Positions 1-9,218 of a DNA stretch of 63,780 nt are shown piece after piece. Both the position numbers and the translations under genes were made by a program. The notes beneath the pieces were generated by a model. That model saw only the letters and a list, made by a program, of their open reading frames with translations, did no database searches and was not told the origin of the DNA. The stretch comes from Sulfurimonadaceae bacterium (GTDB lineage: Bacteria; Campylobacterota; Campylobacteria; Campylobacterales; Sulfurimonadaceae): NCBI GenBank assembly GCA_016744905.1, contig JADGDM010000008.1, positions 1-63,780 on the forward strand, given 5' to 3'. Position 1 is the first letter of the stretch; every line of letters begins with the position of its first letter.

Positions 1-350
1 CGAGTTTGTGGCATTGGGCCATCCGCTGCAGAAACAACAAGAATAGCACCATCCATTTGTGCAGCACCAGTAATCATGTTTTTAACATAATCGGCGTGAC
101 CTGGACAGTCAACGTGTGCATAGTGACGTGTATCAGTTTCGTACTCTACGTGAGAAGTAGCGATTGTGATACCACGTTCGCGCTCTTCAGGAGCGTTATC
201 GATTTGATCATAATCCATAAGTGCAGCACCATTAGTTACTGCTAGAACTGCAGTAATTGCAGCTGTTAGTGTAGTTTTACCATGATCGACGTGACCAATA
301 GTACCAATGTTACAATGCGGTTTATTCCGTTCGAATTTTTCTTTTGCCAT
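1..350 (-). CDS. tuf: Elongation factor Tu, 5' part (cut by window edge)
   Basis: This is the amino-terminal part of EF-Tu, the GTPase that brings aminoacyl-tRNA to the ribosome. The gene starts at the ATG at 350-348 and runs off the left edge after about 116 codons. The G1 loop GHVDHGKT, the switch region with RGITI, and the G3 motif DCPGH are all readable. It is the last gene of the tRNA-Thr/Tyr/Gly/Thr-tuf cluster, an order also known from enterobacterial tufB. It is presumably transcribed from the promoter at 998-1026. Identification is certain; only the 3' end is missing. Confidence 0.98.
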
Positions 351-403
351 AGGGTTCTCCAATGTGATTTTGTAATATAAATGGAATTGTATCCAAAAAT
401 TAC

Positions 404-557
<154 letters not shown>

Positions 558-682
558 ACAATTGTAAATTAATTAGATTGGTGCAAACTATATATTACCT
601 ATGGTAATTTAAGTTTTAAAAGTGAAGAAGTAGTTATTGTACTTCAGCTCCCAGATTGGAACATATTGTTTCTAAGATTCAA

Positions 683-759
683 TGGAGCGGGTGAAGGGAC
701 TCGAACCCTCGACCCTCAGCTTGGAAGGCTGACGCTCTAGCCAACTGAGCTACGCCCGC
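683..759 (-). tRNA. tRNA-Gly (anticodon TCC)
   Basis: This is a 77-nt cloverleaf on the minus strand. It begins GCGGGCG and ends CGCTCCA with encoded CCA. The anticodon arm is TCAGC-CTTCCAA-GCTGA, giving anticodon TCC. The T arm carries GGTTCGAGTC. It is the third of four tRNAs in transcription order. The 163-nt stretch between it and tRNA-Thr(GGT) holds no gene. Confidence 0.96.
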
Positions 760-770
760 GTACATTGATA

Positions 771-855
771 TGGTGATGAGAGAAGGAGTCGAACCTTCGA
801 ACCCATAGGGAGCAGATTTACAGTCTGCCGTCGTTGGCCACTTGACTATCTCACC
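771..855 (-). tRNA. tRNA-Tyr (anticodon GTA)
   Basis: This is an 85-nt class II tRNA on the minus strand with a long variable arm, as expected for bacterial tRNA-Tyr. The anticodon arm is GCAGA-CTGTAAA-TCTGC with anticodon GTA. The acceptor GGTGAGA pairs with TCTCATC through one G-T pair, and CCA is encoded. Confidence 0.96.
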
Positions 856-902
856 ATTTCTTAATATCTGGTCTAACACTGTTTCTAATATTCAACTAAC
901 GA

Positions 903-979
903 TGGTGCCGACACGAGGATTTGAACCCCGGGCCTGCTGATTACAAATCAGCTGCTCTAGCCAACTGAGCTATGTCGGC
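903..979 (-). tRNA. tRNA-Thr (anticodon TGT)
   Basis: This is a 77-nt cloverleaf on the minus strand, starting GCCGACA and ending TGTCGGCACCA. The anticodon arm is GCTGA-TTTGTAA-TCAGC, giving anticodon TGT. It is the first gene of the tRNA-tuf transcription unit, about 12 nt after the expected start of transcription. Confidence 0.96.
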
Positions 980-997
980 ATCGATTGTTGAGGTGGA

Positions 998-1026
998 ATT
1001 ATAGGCAATTTTATTTTTAATGTCAA
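998..1026 (-). promoter_or_regulatory. Consensus sigma70 promoter of the tRNA-tuf operon
   Basis: Read on the minus strand, TTGACA (1026-1021) and TATAAT (1003-998) are separated by exactly 17 nt. Both hexamers are perfect. The promoter is placed so that transcription starts a few bases before tRNA-Thr(TGT). Housekeeping promoters of Campylobacter and Helicobacter usually lack a recognisable -35 box, so this one is unusually canonical. Confidence 0.85.
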
Positions 1027-1037
1027 GCTTTTTTGAT

Positions 1038-1835
1038 TTAAAATGTAATTTTGTCTCCATCTTTCAATACATTACTCTTCCAAATCCCCTGTAGCTGGGC
1101 TATTTCATCAATAATAGTTTTTTCAAAAAGTGGTTTAATATGATTTATATAGAGTGTTATCTCTCTACCTTCTACACTTTTTATTCTCTCAAATAGAAGC
1201 TGAGGCGTTAAATGCTTACTCTCTTTGGCCAATACTTCCATAGATGAAGGGAATGAACATTCAACCACCATAGAAGTAATAGAGTCGTCTTCTTTTAAAA
1301 CCTCTAACATTGTACTTAAATCGTACGTATCTGCAGTAATAAGTACAGAGGTCTCATTTTTCTTAACAACATAACCACAGCTTGGTACCGTATGATCTGT
1401 TTTAAAAGCCATAATGCTTGTTTCATTGTCTAATTCATAAACTTCGCCTATCTCAATAGGAACATAAACGACGCTCATCTCTTTAGAGTTAAGTAGAGGT
1501 ATCTTAGAAAAATCTGGCCAGATAACATCATTTAAAAAATGTTTTTTGACAGCATTTAGTGTTTGTGGCAATCCCATTAATTTTAATGGCTTAGCGCGCT
1601 GATCAAAATAACTGTCCAATATATACGCAATGTCCATTATATGATCTAAATGGGAATGGGTTAACCATATTCCATCAATCTCACCAGCAATATTGCCCAG
1701 TGATCGCAATAAATTACCTGCGTCTATAACATGATGTCTGGTAATCCAAAAGGAAGAGGTCTCATTTTTATGTCCTTTAGTACCATAGGCACCTAGGATT
1801 GTTATCTCATTTTTAGAATTCATCTTTAAACTCAT
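1038..1835 (-). CDS. Class II cyclic-nucleotide phosphodiesterase (MBL fold)
   Basis: This predicted metallo-beta-lactamase-fold enzyme would hydrolyse 3',5'-cAMP (or cGMP). The metal-binding motif HSHLDH stands near residue 60, preceded by IWLT, in the form typical of class II phosphodiesterases (PF02112, yeast PDE1 and bacterial CpdP). Later ligands are likely the TADTYD and NHIKP segments. There is no signal peptide. It is the last gene of the FecR-cyclase-HD-GYP operon and overlaps the stop of the preceding gene. Three starts are possible: TTG at 1847, ATG at 1835 and ATG at 1823. None has a strong ribosome site; conserved sequence begins just after the last. The adjacent adenylate cyclase supports a cAMP substrate. 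Confidence 0.82.
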   Translation of the reverse strand: MSLKMNSKNEITILGAYGTKGHKNETSSFWITRHHVIDAGNLLRSLGNIAGEIDGIWLTHSHLDHIMDIAYILDSYFDQRAKPLKLMGLPQTLNAVKKHFLNDVIWPDFSKIPLLNSKEMSVVYVPIEIGEVYELDNETSIMAFKTDHTVPSCGYVVKKNETSVLITADTYDLSTMLEVLKEDDSITSMVVECSFPSSMEVLAKESKHLTPQLLFERIKSVEGREITLYINHIKPLFEKTIIDEIAQLQGIWKSNVLKDGDKITF

Positions 1836-2925
1836 TTCGTACTTCAAGGAATTTATCTAAATTCTCAAAAAACAGATCTGTTAATTTTGGATCAAAATGT
1901 TTAGCGCGTTCTTCTTCAAAAAGATTAAAAATCTTCTCATCATCCCACGCTTTTTTGTACACCCTATCACTACCTAATGCATCAAACACATCTGCAATGG
2001 CTGTAATACGACCAAAGATGTGAATATCTTCTCCACTGAGTTTTCTTGGATAGCCTGAGCCATCCCATTTTTCATGATGCTCATACGCTACAATAGATGC
2101 TGCTTTTAAAAGTGGTCTATCTGAGTGACGAATCATGTCATAGCCCAACTTGGCATGGGTATCCATAACCGCACGTTCTTCCGCATCAAAACGACCAGGT
2201 TTATTTAAAACAGAATCAGGAATAGCGACTTTACCAATGTCATGCATTGGTGAAGCATCTTTTAGTAATTGCGCTTGCTCTTCACTCAGACCATACGCTA
2301 AAGCCAGGATCTTAGAATATTCTGCCACACGCTTTACATGGTTACCTGTCTCTTTAGAACGGCTCTCACCAATAGCGCCCATAGTAAAGACAACCTCTTT
2401 TTGCGTATCTTCAATCTCTCGTACCAAGCGCGCTGACTCCAAAGTTTCTGCTGCGTAGGTTGAGGAGAGCATCAACCTTTCCATATCTCTTTTATCAAAG
2501 ACCTCTTCATCACCCAATCGATTAATAGCCTGAAAAGCACCAATGATTTCATCATCTTTATTGTACATAGGAACAACCATCATACTTTTAGTACGATAAC
2601 CTGTTTTTTTATCTACTTCAGGATTAAAACGATAGTCATGGTATACATCATTAATCATAATACGTTCTCTACTACTAACCGCACTACCAACAATACCTGA
2701 GTTAATATCTATCTCTATAGCATCCATACCATGAGCTACTTGTGTCCATAGCCTTTTTTTATCATCACTTACTACCCAAACCGTACAACGGTCTGCACTG
2801 GTGATTGCACGACCCATATCAGCGAGTACAATAAGTACATTTTTATGCGAGCGCGTAGATGATATTTTAGTGATATATTTAAAGATTAAAGCCATTACTT
2901 CTGAGGCATTTAAACTATTATTCAT
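1813..2925 (-). CDS. GAF domain / HD-GYP c-di-GMP phosphodiesterase
   Basis: This is a 370-residue cytoplasmic sensor-phosphodiesterase. A GAF domain spans roughly residues 20-160. An HD-GYP domain follows (about 180-365) with the HD pair at 228-229 (MHDIGKVAIP) and an intact HHEKWDGSGYP around 283-293. All hallmark residues for c-di-GMP hydrolysis are present, so it should be active rather than degenerate. A short helical linker joins the two domains. It lies 21 bp after the adenylate cyclase and overlaps the cyclic-nucleotide phosphodiesterase, indicating co-transcription. The GAF domain might bind a cyclic nucleotide made next door; that is inference. Confidence 0.92.
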   Translation of the reverse strand: MNNSLNASEVMALIFKYITKISSTRSHKNVLIVLADMGRAITSADRCTVWVVSDDKKRLWTQVAHGMDAIEIDINSGIVGSAVSSRERIMINDVYHDYRFNPEVDKKTGYRTKSMMVVPMYNKDDEIIGAFQAINRLGDEEVFDKRDMERLMLSSTYAAETLESARLVREIEDTQKEVVFTMGAIGESRSKETGNHVKRVAEYSKILALAYGLSEEQAQLLKDASPMHDIGKVAIPDSVLNKPGRFDAEERAVMDTHAKLGYDMIRHSDRPLLKAASIVAYEHHEKWDGSGYPRKLSGEDIHIFGRITAIADVFDALGSDRVYKKAWDDEKIFNLFEEERAKHFDPKLTDLFFENLDKFLEVRNEFKDEF

Positions 2926-2946
2926 CTATTTTTCCTTTACTTTACT

Positions 2947-5028
2947 TTACTTTGTAGTCATTTTATGGATACCCCAAGGTGTATCATTCTCTAAGAGATC
3001 TATATAATAAGTAGCAACCCTATCATTTGATTCAGTTAAAAGCTTTTTAAAAGCTTCTAGCGCACTTGCGTGATCACCTGCTTTATAAAATTCCAAAGCC
3101 ACATCATGTTCTTCTTTAATAACCTGATTTTTAATACTTACTTTCATCAATTCAAATAAGCTAACTGCTTCATTTTTACCCTTAACCATAACACTCTCAA
3201 TCTCTCTGGTTAAAAAACGATCTTCCAACAGTGGCAAAGTAAACTCTGTAATCAAAATCTTAACCCCATAGTTTTTAGTTAAGCCCTCGACACGTGAAGC
3301 AAGATTTACACCATCACCGATAACCGTATAGTTAAATCTTGTATCTGAACCCATATTACCAACAACTACTTCAGCGGTGTTGATTCCAATACCTATCTCT
3401 ATTGCTGCAATACCCTCTTTTTTAAGTACCTCATTAAGTTTGTCCAACTCTTCTATCATCTCTAGCGCGCTGTCACAAGCTGCTGATGGATGATTTTTAA
3501 CATCAACAGGTGCATTAAAAAATGCCATTAATGCATCACCGATATATTTATCCAACATACCACCATGATTTAATACAGAGTTTGTCATCGGGGTAAAATA
3601 ACGATTTAAAAGTGTAATTAAGGCTTCTGGACTCATAGACTCAGAGATAGAGGTGAAAGAGCGAATATCACTAAATAGCACTGTTAACTCTTTATTCTCT
3701 CCCCCAAGGTTTAAGCCCTCAGGATTTTCAATAAGCTGATCTAAAAGATCTCCAGAGAGATAATTCGAAAAGGCCCCTTTTACAAATCTACTTTTCTGCT
3801 CTTGCAATGTAAATTCAATAATCTCCAATATTGCCCCACTTAAAAAGATCGCAATTAAGGGATAAAACACATCTATATAAATGTAATTCTCTACAAACAT
3901 CCAGCGTGCAAAGAAAAATAGTGCTACATAAGTGGAAATATAAATAACTACCCGCAGACCCGTTCTGTTCACTATAAATATCAATAGAAGTGGCAAAAGA
4001 ATTAAAAAAGAGAGTGCAAAAGCAGTTATTTTATACGAGTCATTGATAAGATGGTTCTCTAAAACATTTGAGATAAATGTGTAGTGCAACAGTGGCCCAG
4101 GAATCTCTCCAAGAGGCGTTGCACGAATATCCCCGGCCCCAATATCTGTAATCCCTAAGATAACAATCTTATTTTCAAAAAAGTCTTTGCTGTAACGCTT
4201 TGAAATAAGATCTGAGAAGGAGATACTCTGGTAGAGCTCTTTTTTATAGTAGTTCAGGCGTACAAAACCTTTTTCATTAAGCTCTAAGACTCTATTTGCC
4301 AAAGAGAGGTGTGTATCATCAACACGTAAGATGTCTGAGTTGGTACGTAGTCGTAAGGCCTGAACACCTAAAGATGGATAAATAAGTTCTGAGTCGTGTT
4401 CATCTAAGTCTCCATTTTCTTCAGCGATAAAATATGCCGTGGGGTAACCTCTAAGTAGTTGATCTTCATCGCGAATGGTTGAGAAAGCGCCCGACATAGA
4501 ACACCCATCAAGAATAGTTTCGATGTTCATCTCTGTATAAGGGGCGCTAACAAAGTTTGGTTTATTGTTGTTTGCGCGTATCTGAACTAAAAGTCTGTCT
4601 AAGGCTGAGTCCACTAAAACATCTTCTTGTTCTTCAGAGATGTTTTGTGTCGACTTTTTACGTAGAAAAAATCCACAGACGCTATTATTTAGTCCATCTA
4701 ATGCTTCACCAAGTGCTTCATCTTGTTCTTCTAGGGTTGGCTCAGAAAAAATCATATCCATTAAAACAACATCTGCTTTGCTTAATTGATCTAAGCCTTG
4801 CGCAATAATTTCCCTGTTCCAAGGCCAACGTCCATAAATATTTACGCTCGGTTCATCAACTGCCACAAAAAGAACATCACCACTAGGTGTTTTATCTTGT
4901 CGCACAAAATTTCCATCTGAAAAACTCTGAGAATATGCCTTAAATGGAGCGTCTTTACCTAGCCATAACCAAAAAGTAAATATACCAATTAACAGCGCTG
5001 ATAAAGAGAGAAAGAAAAACCTTTGCAA
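2947..5028 (-). CDS. CHASE2-domain class III adenylate cyclase
   Basis: This 693-residue membrane enzyme is predicted to make cAMP. Order: an amino-terminal membrane helix (5-24), an extracytoplasmic CHASE2 sensor (about 30-325), three membrane helices (about 335-405), then a class III cyclase domain (about 445-620). Catalytic residues are visible: metal-binding Asp454 (FSDIRSF) and Asp498 (DKYIGDA), Lys494 and Thr568 at the base-recognition positions (favouring ATP over GTP), and Asn575/Arg579 (GVNLASR) for the transition state. A short TPR-like tail follows. The gene starts 1 bp after the FecR gene, so the FecR protein and CHASE2 domain probably meet in the periplasm. Confidence 0.93.
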   Translation of the reverse strand: MQRFFFLSLSALLIGIFTFWLWLGKDAPFKAYSQSFSDGNFVRQDKTPSGDVLFVAVDEPSVNIYGRWPWNREIIAQGLDQLSKADVVLMDMIFSEPTLEEQDEALGEALDGLNNSVCGFFLRKKSTQNISEEQEDVLVDSALDRLLVQIRANNNKPNFVSAPYTEMNIETILDGCSMSGAFSTIRDEDQLLRGYPTAYFIAEENGDLDEHDSELIYPSLGVQALRLRTNSDILRVDDTHLSLANRVLELNEKGFVRLNYYKKELYQSISFSDLISKRYSKDFFENKIVILGITDIGAGDIRATPLGEIPGPLLHYTFISNVLENHLINDSYKITAFALSFLILLPLLLIFIVNRTGLRVVIYISTYVALFFFARWMFVENYIYIDVFYPLIAIFLSGAILEIIEFTLQEQKSRFVKGAFSNYLSGDLLDQLIENPEGLNLGGENKELTVLFSDIRSFTSISESMSPEALITLLNRYFTPMTNSVLNHGGMLDKYIGDALMAFFNAPVDVKNHPSAACDSALEMIEELDKLNEVLKKEGIAAIEIGIGINTAEVVVGNMGSDTRFNYTVIGDGVNLASRVEGLTKNYGVKILITEFTLPLLEDRFLTREIESVMVKGKNEAVSLFELMKVSIKNQVIKEEHDVALEFYKAGDHASALEAFKKLLTESNDRVATYYIDLLENDTPWGIHKMTTK

Positions 5029-5029
5029 A

Positions 5030-5743
5030 CTATAAGCTTTTCATAAGTTCTTTAAAGTGCTCAAACTGCTGTTCTTGTTCCTCTTTAAAAGCACGTTCGT
5101 CCACCCTGTCATTTGCACCAAATGAAATTGATTTTCCTGCTTCAAGATCAAACTCTTTCACATTGGTAATAATGTCCTCTTCCATACTCTTTTTAAACGC
5201 TTCAAAACCCATCTCTTGTTCTGCTTTATAACGTGCATATTCATCCATCACTTTTTTACGGTGTAGTTCAAACTCTTCATGTAAACTCGCGACACCAATA
5301 AGTCCCTCTTTTAAAGAGACACCCTTCGTCTCATTTTTATCATTGACAATAAAAGTAGTTCCTTTAATTCCGATAATAGCGAATTCTGTTTTGATTTTAA
5401 GAGAGTTCTTTTTTCCACGCTTGACGATATTATAATAGACAGAACCCTTGTTTTGGTGGATCTCATTTTCAGCCATAAACTGTATCTGTGAATTTTTATC
5501 CAAAACAACGTCTGAACCATCAAGCAGTTTAATCATCACATGGGCATTTTTATAAGTAATCAACAGATCACCTGCATTCACTTCATAACCCGCTTTGACC
5601 TTCTCTTTTTTAATCGAGTCTTTTTTAAGTACTTTTACCTTGCCACTTGACTTGGCTAAAACACCTATCTTTTCAGCAAATACCGTAGAAGAGAACAAAG
5701 AGGTCACAAGGAGAGTCTGAATTAATAACATAAATAAACGCAT
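5030..5743 (-). CDS. FecR-domain periplasmic protein
   Basis: This is a secreted 237-residue protein with a signal peptide ending near VFA-EK. A FecR-type beta domain covers roughly residues 25-150 (GDLLITYKNA, LLDGSDVVLD, IKGTTFIVN), followed by a charged helical tail with likely coiled coil. FecR domains usually occur in TonB-linked regulators, but stand-alone FecR proteins beside CHASE2 cyclases are a recurring pairing. The start at 5743 is chosen because GGAAA lies at the right distance upstream; an ATG four codons earlier has no such site. It is the first gene of the second-messenger operon and probably tunes the CHASE2 sensor. Confidence 0.85.
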   Translation of the reverse strand: MRLFMLLIQTLLVTSLFSSTVFAEKIGVLAKSSGKVKVLKKDSIKKEKVKAGYEVNAGDLLITYKNAHVMIKLLDGSDVVLDKNSQIQFMAENEIHQNKGSVYYNIVKRGKKNSLKIKTEFAIIGIKGTTFIVNDKNETKGVSLKEGLIGVASLHEEFELHRKKVMDEYARYKAEQEMGFEAFKKSMEEDIITNVKEFDLEAGKSISFGANDRVDERAFKEEQEQQFEHFKELMKSL

Positions 5744-5834
5744 AGTATTTTCCATTTAACGAATTTTCTAAATTATATCATGAATAACGATACAATGGCG
5801 TTAAAAATGAATAAAAGTATATTGAAGGATAAAA

Positions 5835-6560
5835 ATGGTCATTCTTTTCTCACCCTCAGAAGGTAAAAATAGTGAAAATAGTTCAGATAAAATGGAACTT
5901 CTCTTTGGCATAGAAGGTCGTCAAGAGATCTTAAAAACCTACAATGAAACCATAGCGCGCTATGATATAGAAGAGTTAAAAAAACTATTTGGACGAAAAA
6001 AAGAGAGTGATTTTCAAGAGTACTTGGTTGATATATTCAATGCACCAACGGCTAAGGCTGTAGCGCGCTATGATGGGGTAGCGTATGAGTATCTAAAATA
6101 TGAAACGCTCTCTCACGCTGAACAAAGCTATATTGATAAAAACACCTTAATCTTTTCAAATCTTTTTGGAGCAGTGCGCGCTGATGATTTGATTCCAAAT
6201 TATAAAATCAAACAAGGTGAAAGCCTCTCTAACATCGCTCCTGATAAGTTTTACAAGTCTGCTTATACAAAAGAGTTAGATAACTATCTTGAAAACGAAG
6301 AAATTTTAGACCTGCGCGCTGGTTATTATGATAAGTTTTACAAAATCACAAAGTCTTACACCACCATGAAATTTTTAAAAGGTGGTAAAACTGTCAGTCA
6401 CTGGGCGAAGGCATATCGTGGCAATGTTTTGCGTGCTTTGGCAAAGAATAACATCACAAGTATTGAAGCAGTATTAAAACTAAAAATAGAGGATTTAGAA
6501 ATCACAGAGATTAAAACAACAAAAAACAAGCAGGAGATTATCTATAATATTATTGACTAA
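5835..6560 (+). CDS. yaaA: YaaA family peroxide stress protein
   Basis: This 241-residue cytoplasmic protein of the YaaA/DUF328 family limits intracellular iron and oxidative DNA damage in E. coli. Family motifs are the opening FSPSEGK, ARYDGVAYEYL, LFGAVRADDLIPNYKIK and SHWAKAYRGNVLR. It is divergent from the FecR operon across a 91-bp spacer, and an AAGGATAAAA ribosome site precedes its ATG. It carries two exact copies of AGCGCGCT (5954 and 6062) plus two one-mismatch copies, the densest patch in the window. Confidence 0.93.
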   Translation: MVILFSPSEGKNSENSSDKMELLFGIEGRQEILKTYNETIARYDIEELKKLFGRKKESDFQEYLVDIFNAPTAKAVARYDGVAYEYLKYETLSHAEQSYIDKNTLIFSNLFGAVRADDLIPNYKIKQGESLSNIAPDKFYKSAYTKELDNYLENEEILDLRAGYYDKFYKITKSYTTMKFLKGGKTVSHWAKAYRGNVLRALAKNNITSIEAVLKLKIEDLEITEIKTTKNKQEIIYNIID

Positions 6561-6585
6561 TTAATAATTATGATAAAATTACATT

Positions 6586-6906
6586 ATGCAAACAATTGAA
6601 TCAATAAATGAAATAATCAAAAATAATGTCGCAGTAATGCTCTACTTCAGCGCGCCAACATGTAATGTCTGTCATGCCCTTAAACCTAAGTTACTCGCAG
6701 GGATAGAAGATAATTTTAAAGAGTTTGAGATTATCTCTGTTGATGTTTCTGTCGAGATGGAAGTAGCCGCACACTTTAGTGTTTTTGCTATTCCTACTGT
6801 ATTAATCTTTCTTGATGGACGAGAGTATGTACGTAAAAGTCGTCATATGAGCGTAGACGCCGTGATTGATGAGATCCGTCGCCCTTATGAAATGATGATG
6901 TCATAA
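6586..6906 (+). CDS. Thioredoxin-like protein with CNVC active site
   Basis: This small 106-residue thioredoxin-fold protein has the redox motif APTCNVCHAL in place of WCGPC. It has a cis-proline segment AIPTVLIF and no signal peptide, so it should act in the cytoplasm as a thiol-disulfide reductant. It lies 25 bp after yaaA on the same strand and may be co-expressed, which would fit an oxidative stress role. Its substrate is not evident. Confidence 0.85.
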   Translation: MQTIESINEIIKNNVAVMLYFSAPTCNVCHALKPKLLAGIEDNFKEFEIISVDVSVEMEVAAHFSVFAIPTVLIFLDGREYVRKSRHMSVDAVIDEIRRPYEMMMS

Positions 6907-6923
6907 AAATAAAAGCTTCTAAA

Positions 6924-9218
6924 TTACTCTACATTTTCTAATATAGAGGTCAAGGCAGAGTGTTTTAAGTCAGCACTAAAACCAGCATCCACGACTGCTT
7001 TGGTGTACGTATCTTTAAATGCAGGTACTATCACTTCAGAAAAGCCAGTAAATGTTTCAAGATAGCTGTCTTCACCATAGTCAACAACCCCTTTTTTCAT
7101 CGCATCACTCATCACAACAATGTTAAACCACCCCTGAACAATGTCAATAGACTCTTGTGCATCTGGAACGGGATTTATTCCAAGAAAAAGTAAATTGAGA
7201 TAAATAGTTTGATTGACAATTCTCATTGCACTGAGTGCCTCTATAAAAAGTTTAGATCCGTGTGGTGTTTTAAATATAGCATATAAAAATTTTGCATTAT
7301 ATACTTCATTTGCATCCTCGGTATCTGTGCTACCTGTATTAAAAAAGAGACTGGAAAATCTTGCATTTTCACCCTGCTTCGTATCAATACTTTCTGGAAC
7401 AATCAAATATTTTGCTGCATAATCCACCATCAGATTCATCATTGCCTCAGTGGTATACTCATTTTTATGTACTGATGAATATGGTAGAGTATCGCTATCA
7501 ACTAAAATATGTGCATCAGAAGAGTTCACCATAGCTATCGCCAGTGCATCATACATATCAACATCTATATAGGTAAAGAGAAGATCTGCCATACTTTCAT
7601 GTTTCAGACACAACTCCATAAACTTTTCAGAAAAAGCAAGGTTACTTTCATCTCTCATCATCGATAAAGTCTTCAGTGAGAAAATTTCCCAACCTTTATC
7701 GTCACTAAAACTATTTGCCAGTGTGTCCGCTATAGTTTCAGAATCAATACCCATCTGTAAAATCTCTTTTGCAATTTCATCATGATCCAATGAAATAATG
7801 AGTGCTACACGAAAAAGAGTGAGGTTATTATCCACATCACTGAGGGCAATATTGTCAATAATAGAGGAGACAATTAAAACTTCTCTTTCCCTTTCACTCT
7901 TTGATTCAAACCTTGTTTTAACATCACCGGTAAGTAGTGTTGATACAAGGGCCTTTGAATCAATAGGTATCGTCTCTTTTTCACCTTTTTGTACTGCTTG
8001 AGAGAGTGTAAAAAGGACATCACTAAACTTTAAAGGTAGATTTTGGACCTGATAACGTTTTAGCATATTCGAGGTAGTAGAAAGAACCTCTTCGCTCAAG
8101 CTTTGATTAATATCTCCTAGTGCAGTTGCACTTAAAAGTTCCACATTTAATTCCTGAGAGAGAGCATCTAGAATACTGATATTAATATCCTTGAAAGCAC
8201 GATTATTTGCGGTATCTATGGCGACTAGAGTTATGTTATACTGCTCTTTTGTTGCATAAATTGGAGGTGCATTAAATTTTAGTACGCTATTGTTCAAATC
8301 AAAATATGTACCGTCTTCGCCTTCAATACTTAATACTGCTTCAGCATCATCCGTTAAAAAATTCAAGACAAAATGCTCATTTTCATTCACATCAATATAA
8401 ACATTACTATCTATCACTGGAGCTAAAGTATCTATGATACTGATATTGATATCTTTAAAAGCACGATTATTCGCATTGTCTATGGCTACTAATCTTATAT
8501 TGTATTGGTGCTTTACTATATATATTGGAGGATTTTTTAGACTTAATATTGAATTGTCTAAATTAAAATAAGCACTGTCTTCACCTTCGATACTCAAATC
8601 TGCTCCAGAATCATCTGTTGAGAATTTCAAAACAAATTGTTCTTTTTCATCTACTCGAATATTCATATTATTATTTATCACTGGAGCTAAATTATCTATA
8701 ATAGTGATATTAATATCTTTAAAAGCACGGTTGTTTGAGGCGTCTAGCGCTACTAATGTGATATTATAGTACTGTTTTACTGCATATATAGGAGCAGTTT
8801 TAAAACTTACTACTGAACTATTAAGATCAAAATATGTACTATCTTCACCTTCAATACTTAATACCGATCCAGCATCATCCGTTAAAAAGTTCAAGACAAA
8901 ACGCTCTTTTTCATTCACGTCAATATCAGACTCATTATTTATCACTGGAGATATAGTGTCTTTTTCTACTACTGGAGTTATCGGAGTTGTACTATTGTCC
9001 TCTTTAGGATCAATGACTTCATCAACTTCATCTTCTTTAGGATCAATGACTTCATCAACTTCATCTTCTTTCGGTTCAACACTTTTATCTTCTTTAGGAT
9101 CAGCAATCTGCTCTCTATCCACAGCCACTTCACCCTCATCAGTAGTATCGGCACAACCAGTCAAAGAGCTTAGAAGTAAGAGTGTACTAAAAATATACGC
9201 TAAAAATTTAGATTGCAT
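6924..9218 (-). CDS. Large lipoprotein: acidic stalk, three cadherin-like repeats, novel C-terminal domain
   Basis: This 764-residue protein has a signal peptide and lipobox LTGC (Cys22), so it should be lipid-anchored. An acidic Pro/Lys/Glu/Asp linker with tandem repeats follows (about 30-85). Three repeats of about 92 residues come next, each opening SPVI/APVI-N and ending AFKDINI-T/S-I, which look like cadherin-type beta domains. The remainder (about 375-764) is helical and clearly homologous to the lipoprotein at 31993-34296. In a 49-residue block starting DESNLAF, 29 positions match. I do not recognise this domain. It converges with the thioredoxin gene 17 bp away. Confidence 0.8.
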   Translation of the reverse strand: MQSKFLAYIFSTLLLLSSLTGCADTTDEGEVAVDREQIADPKEDKSVEPKEDEVDEVIDPKEDEVDEVIDPKEDNSTTPITPVVEKDTISPVINNESDIDVNEKERFVLNFLTDDAGSVLSIEGEDSTYFDLNSSVVSFKTAPIYAVKQYYNITLVALDASNNRAFKDINITIIDNLAPVINNNMNIRVDEKEQFVLKFSTDDSGADLSIEGEDSAYFNLDNSILSLKNPPIYIVKHQYNIRLVAIDNANNRAFKDINISIIDTLAPVIDSNVYIDVNENEHFVLNFLTDDAEAVLSIEGEDGTYFDLNNSVLKFNAPPIYATKEQYNITLVAIDTANNRAFKDINISILDALSQELNVELLSATALGDINQSLSEEVLSTTSNMLKRYQVQNLPLKFSDVLFTLSQAVQKGEKETIPIDSKALVSTLLTGDVKTRFESKSEREREVLIVSSIIDNIALSDVDNNLTLFRVALIISLDHDEIAKEILQMGIDSETIADTLANSFSDDKGWEIFSLKTLSMMRDESNLAFSEKFMELCLKHESMADLLFTYIDVDMYDALAIAMVNSSDAHILVDSDTLPYSSVHKNEYTTEAMMNLMVDYAAKYLIVPESIDTKQGENARFSSLFFNTGSTDTEDANEVYNAKFLYAIFKTPHGSKLFIEALSAMRIVNQTIYLNLLFLGINPVPDAQESIDIVQGWFNIVVMSDAMKKGVVDYGEDSYLETFTGFSEVIVPAFKDTYTKAVVDAGFSADLKHSALTSILENVE
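8998..9063 (-). repeat. 33-bp tandem repeat in the acidic linker of the lipoprotein
   Basis: Two 33-bp units (8998-9030 and 9031-9063) differ at one base, and a degenerate third copy follows. Each encodes an 11-residue unit containing PKEDEVDEVI. Such near-identical tandem units are prone to copy-number change, which would alter the length of the stalk. Confidence 0.8.

Follow-up and report, generated by a model that had tools for sequence, protein, structure and literature searches.

Gene content and layout

Within the window, the whole 63,780-nucleotide stretch of a Sulfurimonadaceae genome (contig JADGDM010000008.1) analysed here, four minus-strand genes lie between positions 1038 and 5755 in the order FecR-domain protein, CHASE2-cyclase, GAF-HD-GYP protein and class II cyclic-nucleotide phosphodiesterase (PDE). 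Open reading frames and Pfam matches confirmed both this set and the tight spacing described in an earlier, sequence-only reading. The first gene (5030..5755, starting at 5755 or at an ATG at 5743) encodes a predicted periplasmic protein with a Sec signal peptide and holds the same place in relatives. The CHASE2-cyclase gene (2947..5028) opens with a TTG 1 bp past the FecR stop and is separated by 21 bp from the GAF-HD-GYP gene (1813..2925), whose ATG is preceded by AAAGGA. The GAF-HD-GYP stop overlaps the PDE start by 11 bp in different frames (1813..1823); in Sulfurimonas the two genes are joined in frame at this junction. The PDE frame as listed (1038-1847) opens with a TTG at 1847, and the ATG at 1823 is the likelier start (PDE, 1038..1823). 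All domains scored above their Pfam cut-offs (FecR, PF04773, 42.1 bits; CHASE2, PF05226, 126.7; Guanylate_cyc, PF00211, 89.3; GAF, 47; HD_5, 117; PDEase_II, PF02112, 55.3).

The operon is flanked by a divergent yaaA-like gene on one side and a tRNA-tuf cluster on the other, with the tuf synteny kept in relatives. A perfect TTGACA-17-TATAAT sequence (998-1026, minus strand) begins 12 bp past the PDE stop, directed towards the tRNA-Thr/Tyr/Gly/Thr-tuf cluster, and the operon is not set off from this cluster by any clear terminator. Further along the same strand (6924-9218), a 764-aa lipoprotein-like frame combines repeated modules with an acidic repeat (PKEDEVDEVID), and had no Pfam match.

The FecR-domain protein begins with a signal peptide (MRLFMLLIQTLLVTSLFSSTVFA) followed by the FecR domain. 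We rejected a classical FecR-FecI system: the anti-sigma region is absent from the protein, and a sigma gene is absent among the open reading frames of window positions 1-9218. Judged by its domain content, this 'FecR' is not an anti-sigma factor but a FecR-domain protein of the periplasm.

The second gene encodes CHASE2, transmembrane helices and a class III cyclase domain with the motifs FSDIRSFT, DKYIGDA, YTVIGD and YTVIGDGVNLASR, in which the two metal-binding Asp, the Lys and Thr substrate residues and the Asn/Arg pair are all present. A Lys/Thr pair is typical of class III adenylate cyclases, and the closest structures in the PDB are those of bacterial adenylate cyclases, CyaB among them. 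The substrate residues point to ATP, hence to cAMP rather than cGMP as the predicted product. The same genome has a second FecR/CHASE2-cyclase pair (L055, contig C113, 6052-9033), with a GGDEF protein about 3 kb away and neither PDE nor HD-GYP beside it, and a third CHASE2-cyclase on contig C116 (L054).

Residues of the GAF-HD-GYP protein and the class II PDE

The GAF-HD-GYP protein aligned end to end with the crystallised enzyme PmGH (4mcw; 353 bits over 359 aa, 45% identity). It retains PmGH residues E185, H189, H221, D222, K225, H250, H276, H277, the GYP motif, D305, D308, R314 and K317, so that the eight metal ligands are complete; with the E of ETG among these ligands and HHExxDGxGYP with I, it belongs to the trinuclear (PmGH) type of HD-GYP domain. 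The sole change at the positions checked is Ser in place of D183, a substitution found in 37 of 41 relatives, whereas PmGH has Asp. C-di-GMP hydrolysis has been measured for PmGH, in which D183 is not among the eight ligands and is proposed to be catalytic, and D183A strongly reduces activity (PMC4159591). The claim that all catalytic residues of the operon are intact thus stood for the cyclase, the PDE and the HD-GYP ligands, and failed at the D183 position. As read from the alignment, this Ser lowers the claim of activity and leaves the subfamily placement as it is. The D183A phenotype and the prevalence of Ser could mean that the HD-GYP protein is a cAMP reader, serving as trigger or scaffold with weak or zero c-di-GMP hydrolysis; we regard this as very improbable, given that all eight metal ligands, K225, GYP, R314 and K317 are kept.

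PmGH is 72% identical to the GAF-HD-GYP protein of L127, a member of an operon in Aquificota, and the two group together. The hydrolysis measured for PmGH thus gives the family its firmest biochemical footing. Persephonella, the source of PmGH, presumably belongs to the Hydrogenothermaceae (Aquificota), so the closest relatives of PmGH, which has the same architecture and identical metal ligands, would lie in a four-gene operon within its own family.

Besides PmGH, the nearest solved relatives of the GAF domain are the cAMP-binding GAF domains of CyaB2 and those of mammalian PDEs. In CyaB2 GAFb, cAMP is contacted by R291, T293, I308, D356 and N359 (PMC4411481); the window GAF has R, T, V, D and T at these positions, and V and T also occupy positions 308 and 359 in CyaB2 GAFa. 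Across 41 GAF-HD-GYP proteins of the window type (type 1), R291 and D356 are invariant, V stands at 308 in 40 of the proteins, and 293 and 359 are each either T or S. These residues predict that the GAF domain binds cAMP, in line with the earlier suggestion that it could bind the product of the neighbouring cyclase. The NKFDE motif reads N-R-F-D-M in the window GAF and N-[HKR]-F-D-[ML] in the type-1 set, and is complete, as read from sequence, in L106, a protein of a second GAF-HD-GYP subfamily (type 2) described below. The type-2 GAF lacks the cAMP-contact arginine.

The PDE, of metallo-beta-lactamase fold, matches the class II profile (PF02112) and carries all metal ligands of the class: HxHLDH plus the downstream H, D and H, kept in 22 of 22 relatives. 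Its AlphaFold model (pLDDT 96.7) has yeast PDE1 as its top fold match (4ojv, TM 0.84), and the two share the fold, the metal ligands, the N-x3-WPDF region and the HxKP motif. CpdP has these features as well. The difference from yeast PDE1 and CpdP is that the window-type PDE is paired with, or fused to, a c-di-GMP phosphodiesterase. RNase Z was rejected as an identity, the NCBIfam RNase Z model reaching 52 bits where 293 are required, and a plasmid search with the PDE as query returned zero matches. A tandem pair of class II PDE genes follows GAF-HD-GYP in another Campylobacterota family (L261, 5171-6714). Taken with their conservation, the domains predict a unit that makes cAMP, probably breaks cAMP and breaks c-di-GMP, as the sequence-only reading had proposed.

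Partnership, fusion and co-occurrence across genomes

Our survey covered 200 genomes that by name belong to the same family, Sulfurimonadaceae. Of these, 89 have a class III cyclase; the PDE was found in 83 of the 89, and window-type HD-GYP in 59 of them as against 6 of the 111 cyclase-less genomes. Among 84 genomes with a window-type PDE, 58 had both HD-GYP and cyclase, 15 had neither, five had HD-GYP only and six had cyclase only, giving an association between HD-GYP and cyclase with Fisher p of 4e-8 in a test that takes no account of kinship. On the PDE tree, independent pairs gave five to six concordant and, in most pairings, zero discordant cases (p about 0.03-0.06), which is borderline. 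HD-GYP thus tends to go missing with the cyclase while the PDE often stays; several of the surveyed genomes are incomplete, which blurs absences.

The PDE occurs without a class III cyclase in 55 of the 200 genomes, and in L047, L048 and L059 it stands alone between YaaA and tuf. Its retention without the cyclase means that it may have substrates besides cAMP, or a main substrate other than cAMP, and its retention without both HD-GYP and cyclase that it may have a further role. The enzyme might then mainly cleave cGMP, 2',3'-cyclic nucleotides, cAMP from outside or another cyclic phosphate, so that the molecule made by the operon and the one broken would differ; its fold is also that of RNase Z, PhnP and Apyc1. 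Against this stand the presence of the PDE in nearly all cyclase-bearing genomes, its position directly behind a CHASE2-cyclase in several Proteobacteria, yeast PDE1 as top match by both fold and sequence, and a PF02112 score well over the cut-off with RNase Z models far under theirs. We consider a different main substrate improbable.

HD-GYP and PDE genes are close partners. In the 200 genomes, 62 of 64 full GAF-HD-GYP orthologues adjoin the PDE, a pairing beyond chance, and 45 form a single fused open reading frame; the two non-adjacent cases are an incomplete match and one with the PDE on a separate contig. Orthologous cyclases adjoin HD-GYP in 37 of 47 cases. The fused frames (638-669 aa) were confirmed by Pfam and also occur in genomes assembled as one contig. 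AlphaFold modelled the fusion poorly (pLDDT 76, pTM 0.46), and this model was left out of the evidence.

Three kinds of fusion were distinguished. One has the order GAF-HDGYP-PDE (for example, L041 and L076). Another has the order PDE-GAF-HDGYP, about 780-810 aa, and an HD-GYP domain of another subfamily, type 2 (L050, L106, L256), which scored 219-272 bits against stand-alone proteins from Proteobacteria and no more than 75 bits against the window type. This PDE-first fusion lies after or near another CHASE2-cyclase in relatives of Sulfurospirillum, Arcobacter and Sulfurimonas, and Sulfuricurvum also has this fusion. The remaining kind has the order PDE-GAF-HDGYP with a window-type GAF-HD-GYP, about 640 aa (L249-L251). 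A CHASE2-cyclase is the usual neighbour of HD-GYP/PDE fusions. In the tree, the HD-GYP-first fusions form one clade nested in split forms, apart from the PDE-first ones. Two domain orders, two HD-GYP subfamilies and this tree together imply at least three separate fusion events. The idea that the split genes of the window are a broken fusion was rejected: in the tree, the split proteins fall outside the fused clade, and L035 is among the relatives of the window that also have separate genes.

The repeated joining of the two enzymes points to a putative dedicated link between cAMP and c-di-GMP. The genes might instead be merely co-regulated or co-inherited, with the two phosphodiesterases acting on separate pools and the GAF domain sensing another ligand or only dimerising the HD-GYP domain. 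PmGH was crystallised and is active without a known GAF ligand, the ligands of GAF domains are many, and the key arginine is absent from the type-2 GAF, all of which suit co-inheritance. This reading is unlikely in our judgement, in view of the three or more separate fusions in both orders, the tendency of HD-GYP to be absent along with the cyclase, and the near-invariant cAMP-contact residues of the GAF domain.

The gene set is conserved far beyond the strain, into Aquificota. Two Hydrogenothermaceae metagenome-assembled genomes (L126, L127) have GAF-HD-GYP, FecR, CHASE2-cyclase and PDE in one operon, and a Desulfurobacterium one (L129) has the PDE next to GAF-HD-GYP. In Burkholderiales and other Proteobacteria the PDE directly follows the CHASE2-cyclase, and at several proteobacterial loci a GAF-MshEN-T2SSE ATPase and a GAF-HD-GYP lie downstream of the cyclase-PDE pair.

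These ATPases combine GAF, MshEN (of the c-di-GMP-binding type) and T2SSE domains (L136, 8931-11315; L140, 7815-10214; L139, 7793-10222; L128, 7788-10151; L147, 4188-6965) and, in Proteobacteria, are encoded at or near a class II PDE, in most cases together with a GAF-HD-GYP. Of their GAF domains, four were aligned, and these keep the cAMP-type Arg and Thr. The ATPase may drive a pilus or secretion system and respond to both messengers. At L140 (2671-6867), a CHASE2-protein kinase, a PP2C phosphatase and an FHA protein precede the PDE, and a CHASE2-cyclase was not found in the locus.

A candidate link between cAMP and c-di-GMP

Part of this gene set is already known. As reported in the main text of Mo 2022 (PMC9239204), every Campylobacterota cyclase is a CHASE2 protein, 21% of the species have a cyclase, and the cyclases are mostly encoded in a cluster together with FecR and TPR proteins and a cAMP phosphodiesterase. 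The cluster described there and the window locus share the phylum and the grouping of CHASE2 cyclase, cAMP phosphodiesterase and FecR protein; they differ in that a separate TPR gene is missing from the window locus. Membership of HD-GYP, the fusion of the two phosphodiesterases and the cAMP-type GAF are absent from that main text, and we found no described HD-GYP/class II PDE fusion in the open-access literature searched. Set against the main text of Mo 2022, what is new here is the fixed HD-GYP/class II PDE partnership and its fusions, which extend the published cluster.

C-di-GMP enzymes gated by cAMP are likewise known: Tlr0485, Lcd1 and Bd1971 (PMC8846402, PMC6717892). Tlr0485 of Thermosynechococcus is also a GAF-HD-GYP protein and is reported to be activated by cAMP (reviewed in PMC8846402). 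Bd1971 (CNB-EAL) and Lcd1 (GAF-GGDEF) are similarly c-di-GMP enzymes under cAMP control, but their architectures differ from GAF-HD-GYP and do not include a cAMP phosphodiesterase.

In the genome that contains the window, 63 matches to GGDEF and three class III cyclases were counted, and the PDE of the operon is the single PF02112 member (a count of that class alone). The genome also encodes twelve CNB domains. Proteins whose CNB domain has a canonical phosphate cassette all lack an HTH; they include a CNB-only protein, a SulP-STAS transporter and an 828-aa membrane protein. The sequence-only reading had called for a search for a Crp-type receptor; the Crp/Fnr-type HTH proteins of the genome lack the phosphate-cassette arginine, and a Crp HTH together with the cNMP cassette GE...R[ST]A was not found in any one protein of the genome (a low-scoring candidate, L166, was judged by eye only). 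A classical Crp output is therefore unlikely, and the cAMP receptors are likely to be other CNB proteins and the GAF domain itself.

On balance we lean towards reading the operon as a two-messenger switch. The periplasmic FecR-domain protein and CHASE2 would respond to an envelope condition by controlling how much cAMP the cytoplasmic cyclase makes, as their domains suggest. The GAF domain would bind cAMP and alter c-di-GMP hydrolysis by the HD-GYP domain, most likely activating it; here the argument draws on the binding-site residues, the co-occurrence with the cyclase and the precedents named above. The class II PDE, adjacent to or in one chain with HD-GYP, would clear cAMP and so reset the system. 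The net effect would be a local drop in c-di-GMP upon an envelope signal, in a cell rich in GGDEF proteins, with cAMP also free for non-Crp cyclic-nucleotide-binding proteins. Short pulses of cAMP, as had been suggested from the sequence, are plausible. Our confidence in the switch is tempered by the PDE without cyclase, the Ser at D183, the partial NKFDE motif, the type-2 GAF without the arginine and the borderline pair test. More tentatively, and with somewhat less than even confidence, we propose that single-chain cAMP and c-di-GMP hydrolases, gated by cAMP at the GAF domain, arose at least three times beside CHASE2-cyclases, and that PmGH belongs with them, its GAF domain being a cAMP receptor.

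Networks of cAMP and of c-di-GMP are mostly treated as separate, with few cases of one messenger gating an enzyme of the other. Since both off-switches repeatedly occur in one protein beside a source of cAMP, their coupling can be tested on a single purified protein. For PmGH there is now a concrete prediction of its GAF ligand, cAMP, and cAMP signalling in free-living Campylobacterota becomes a specific question. Repeated fusion is the distinctive evidence for this candidate variant of cAMP/c-di-GMP cross-talk, which extends a published cluster and is not a wholly new kind of system.
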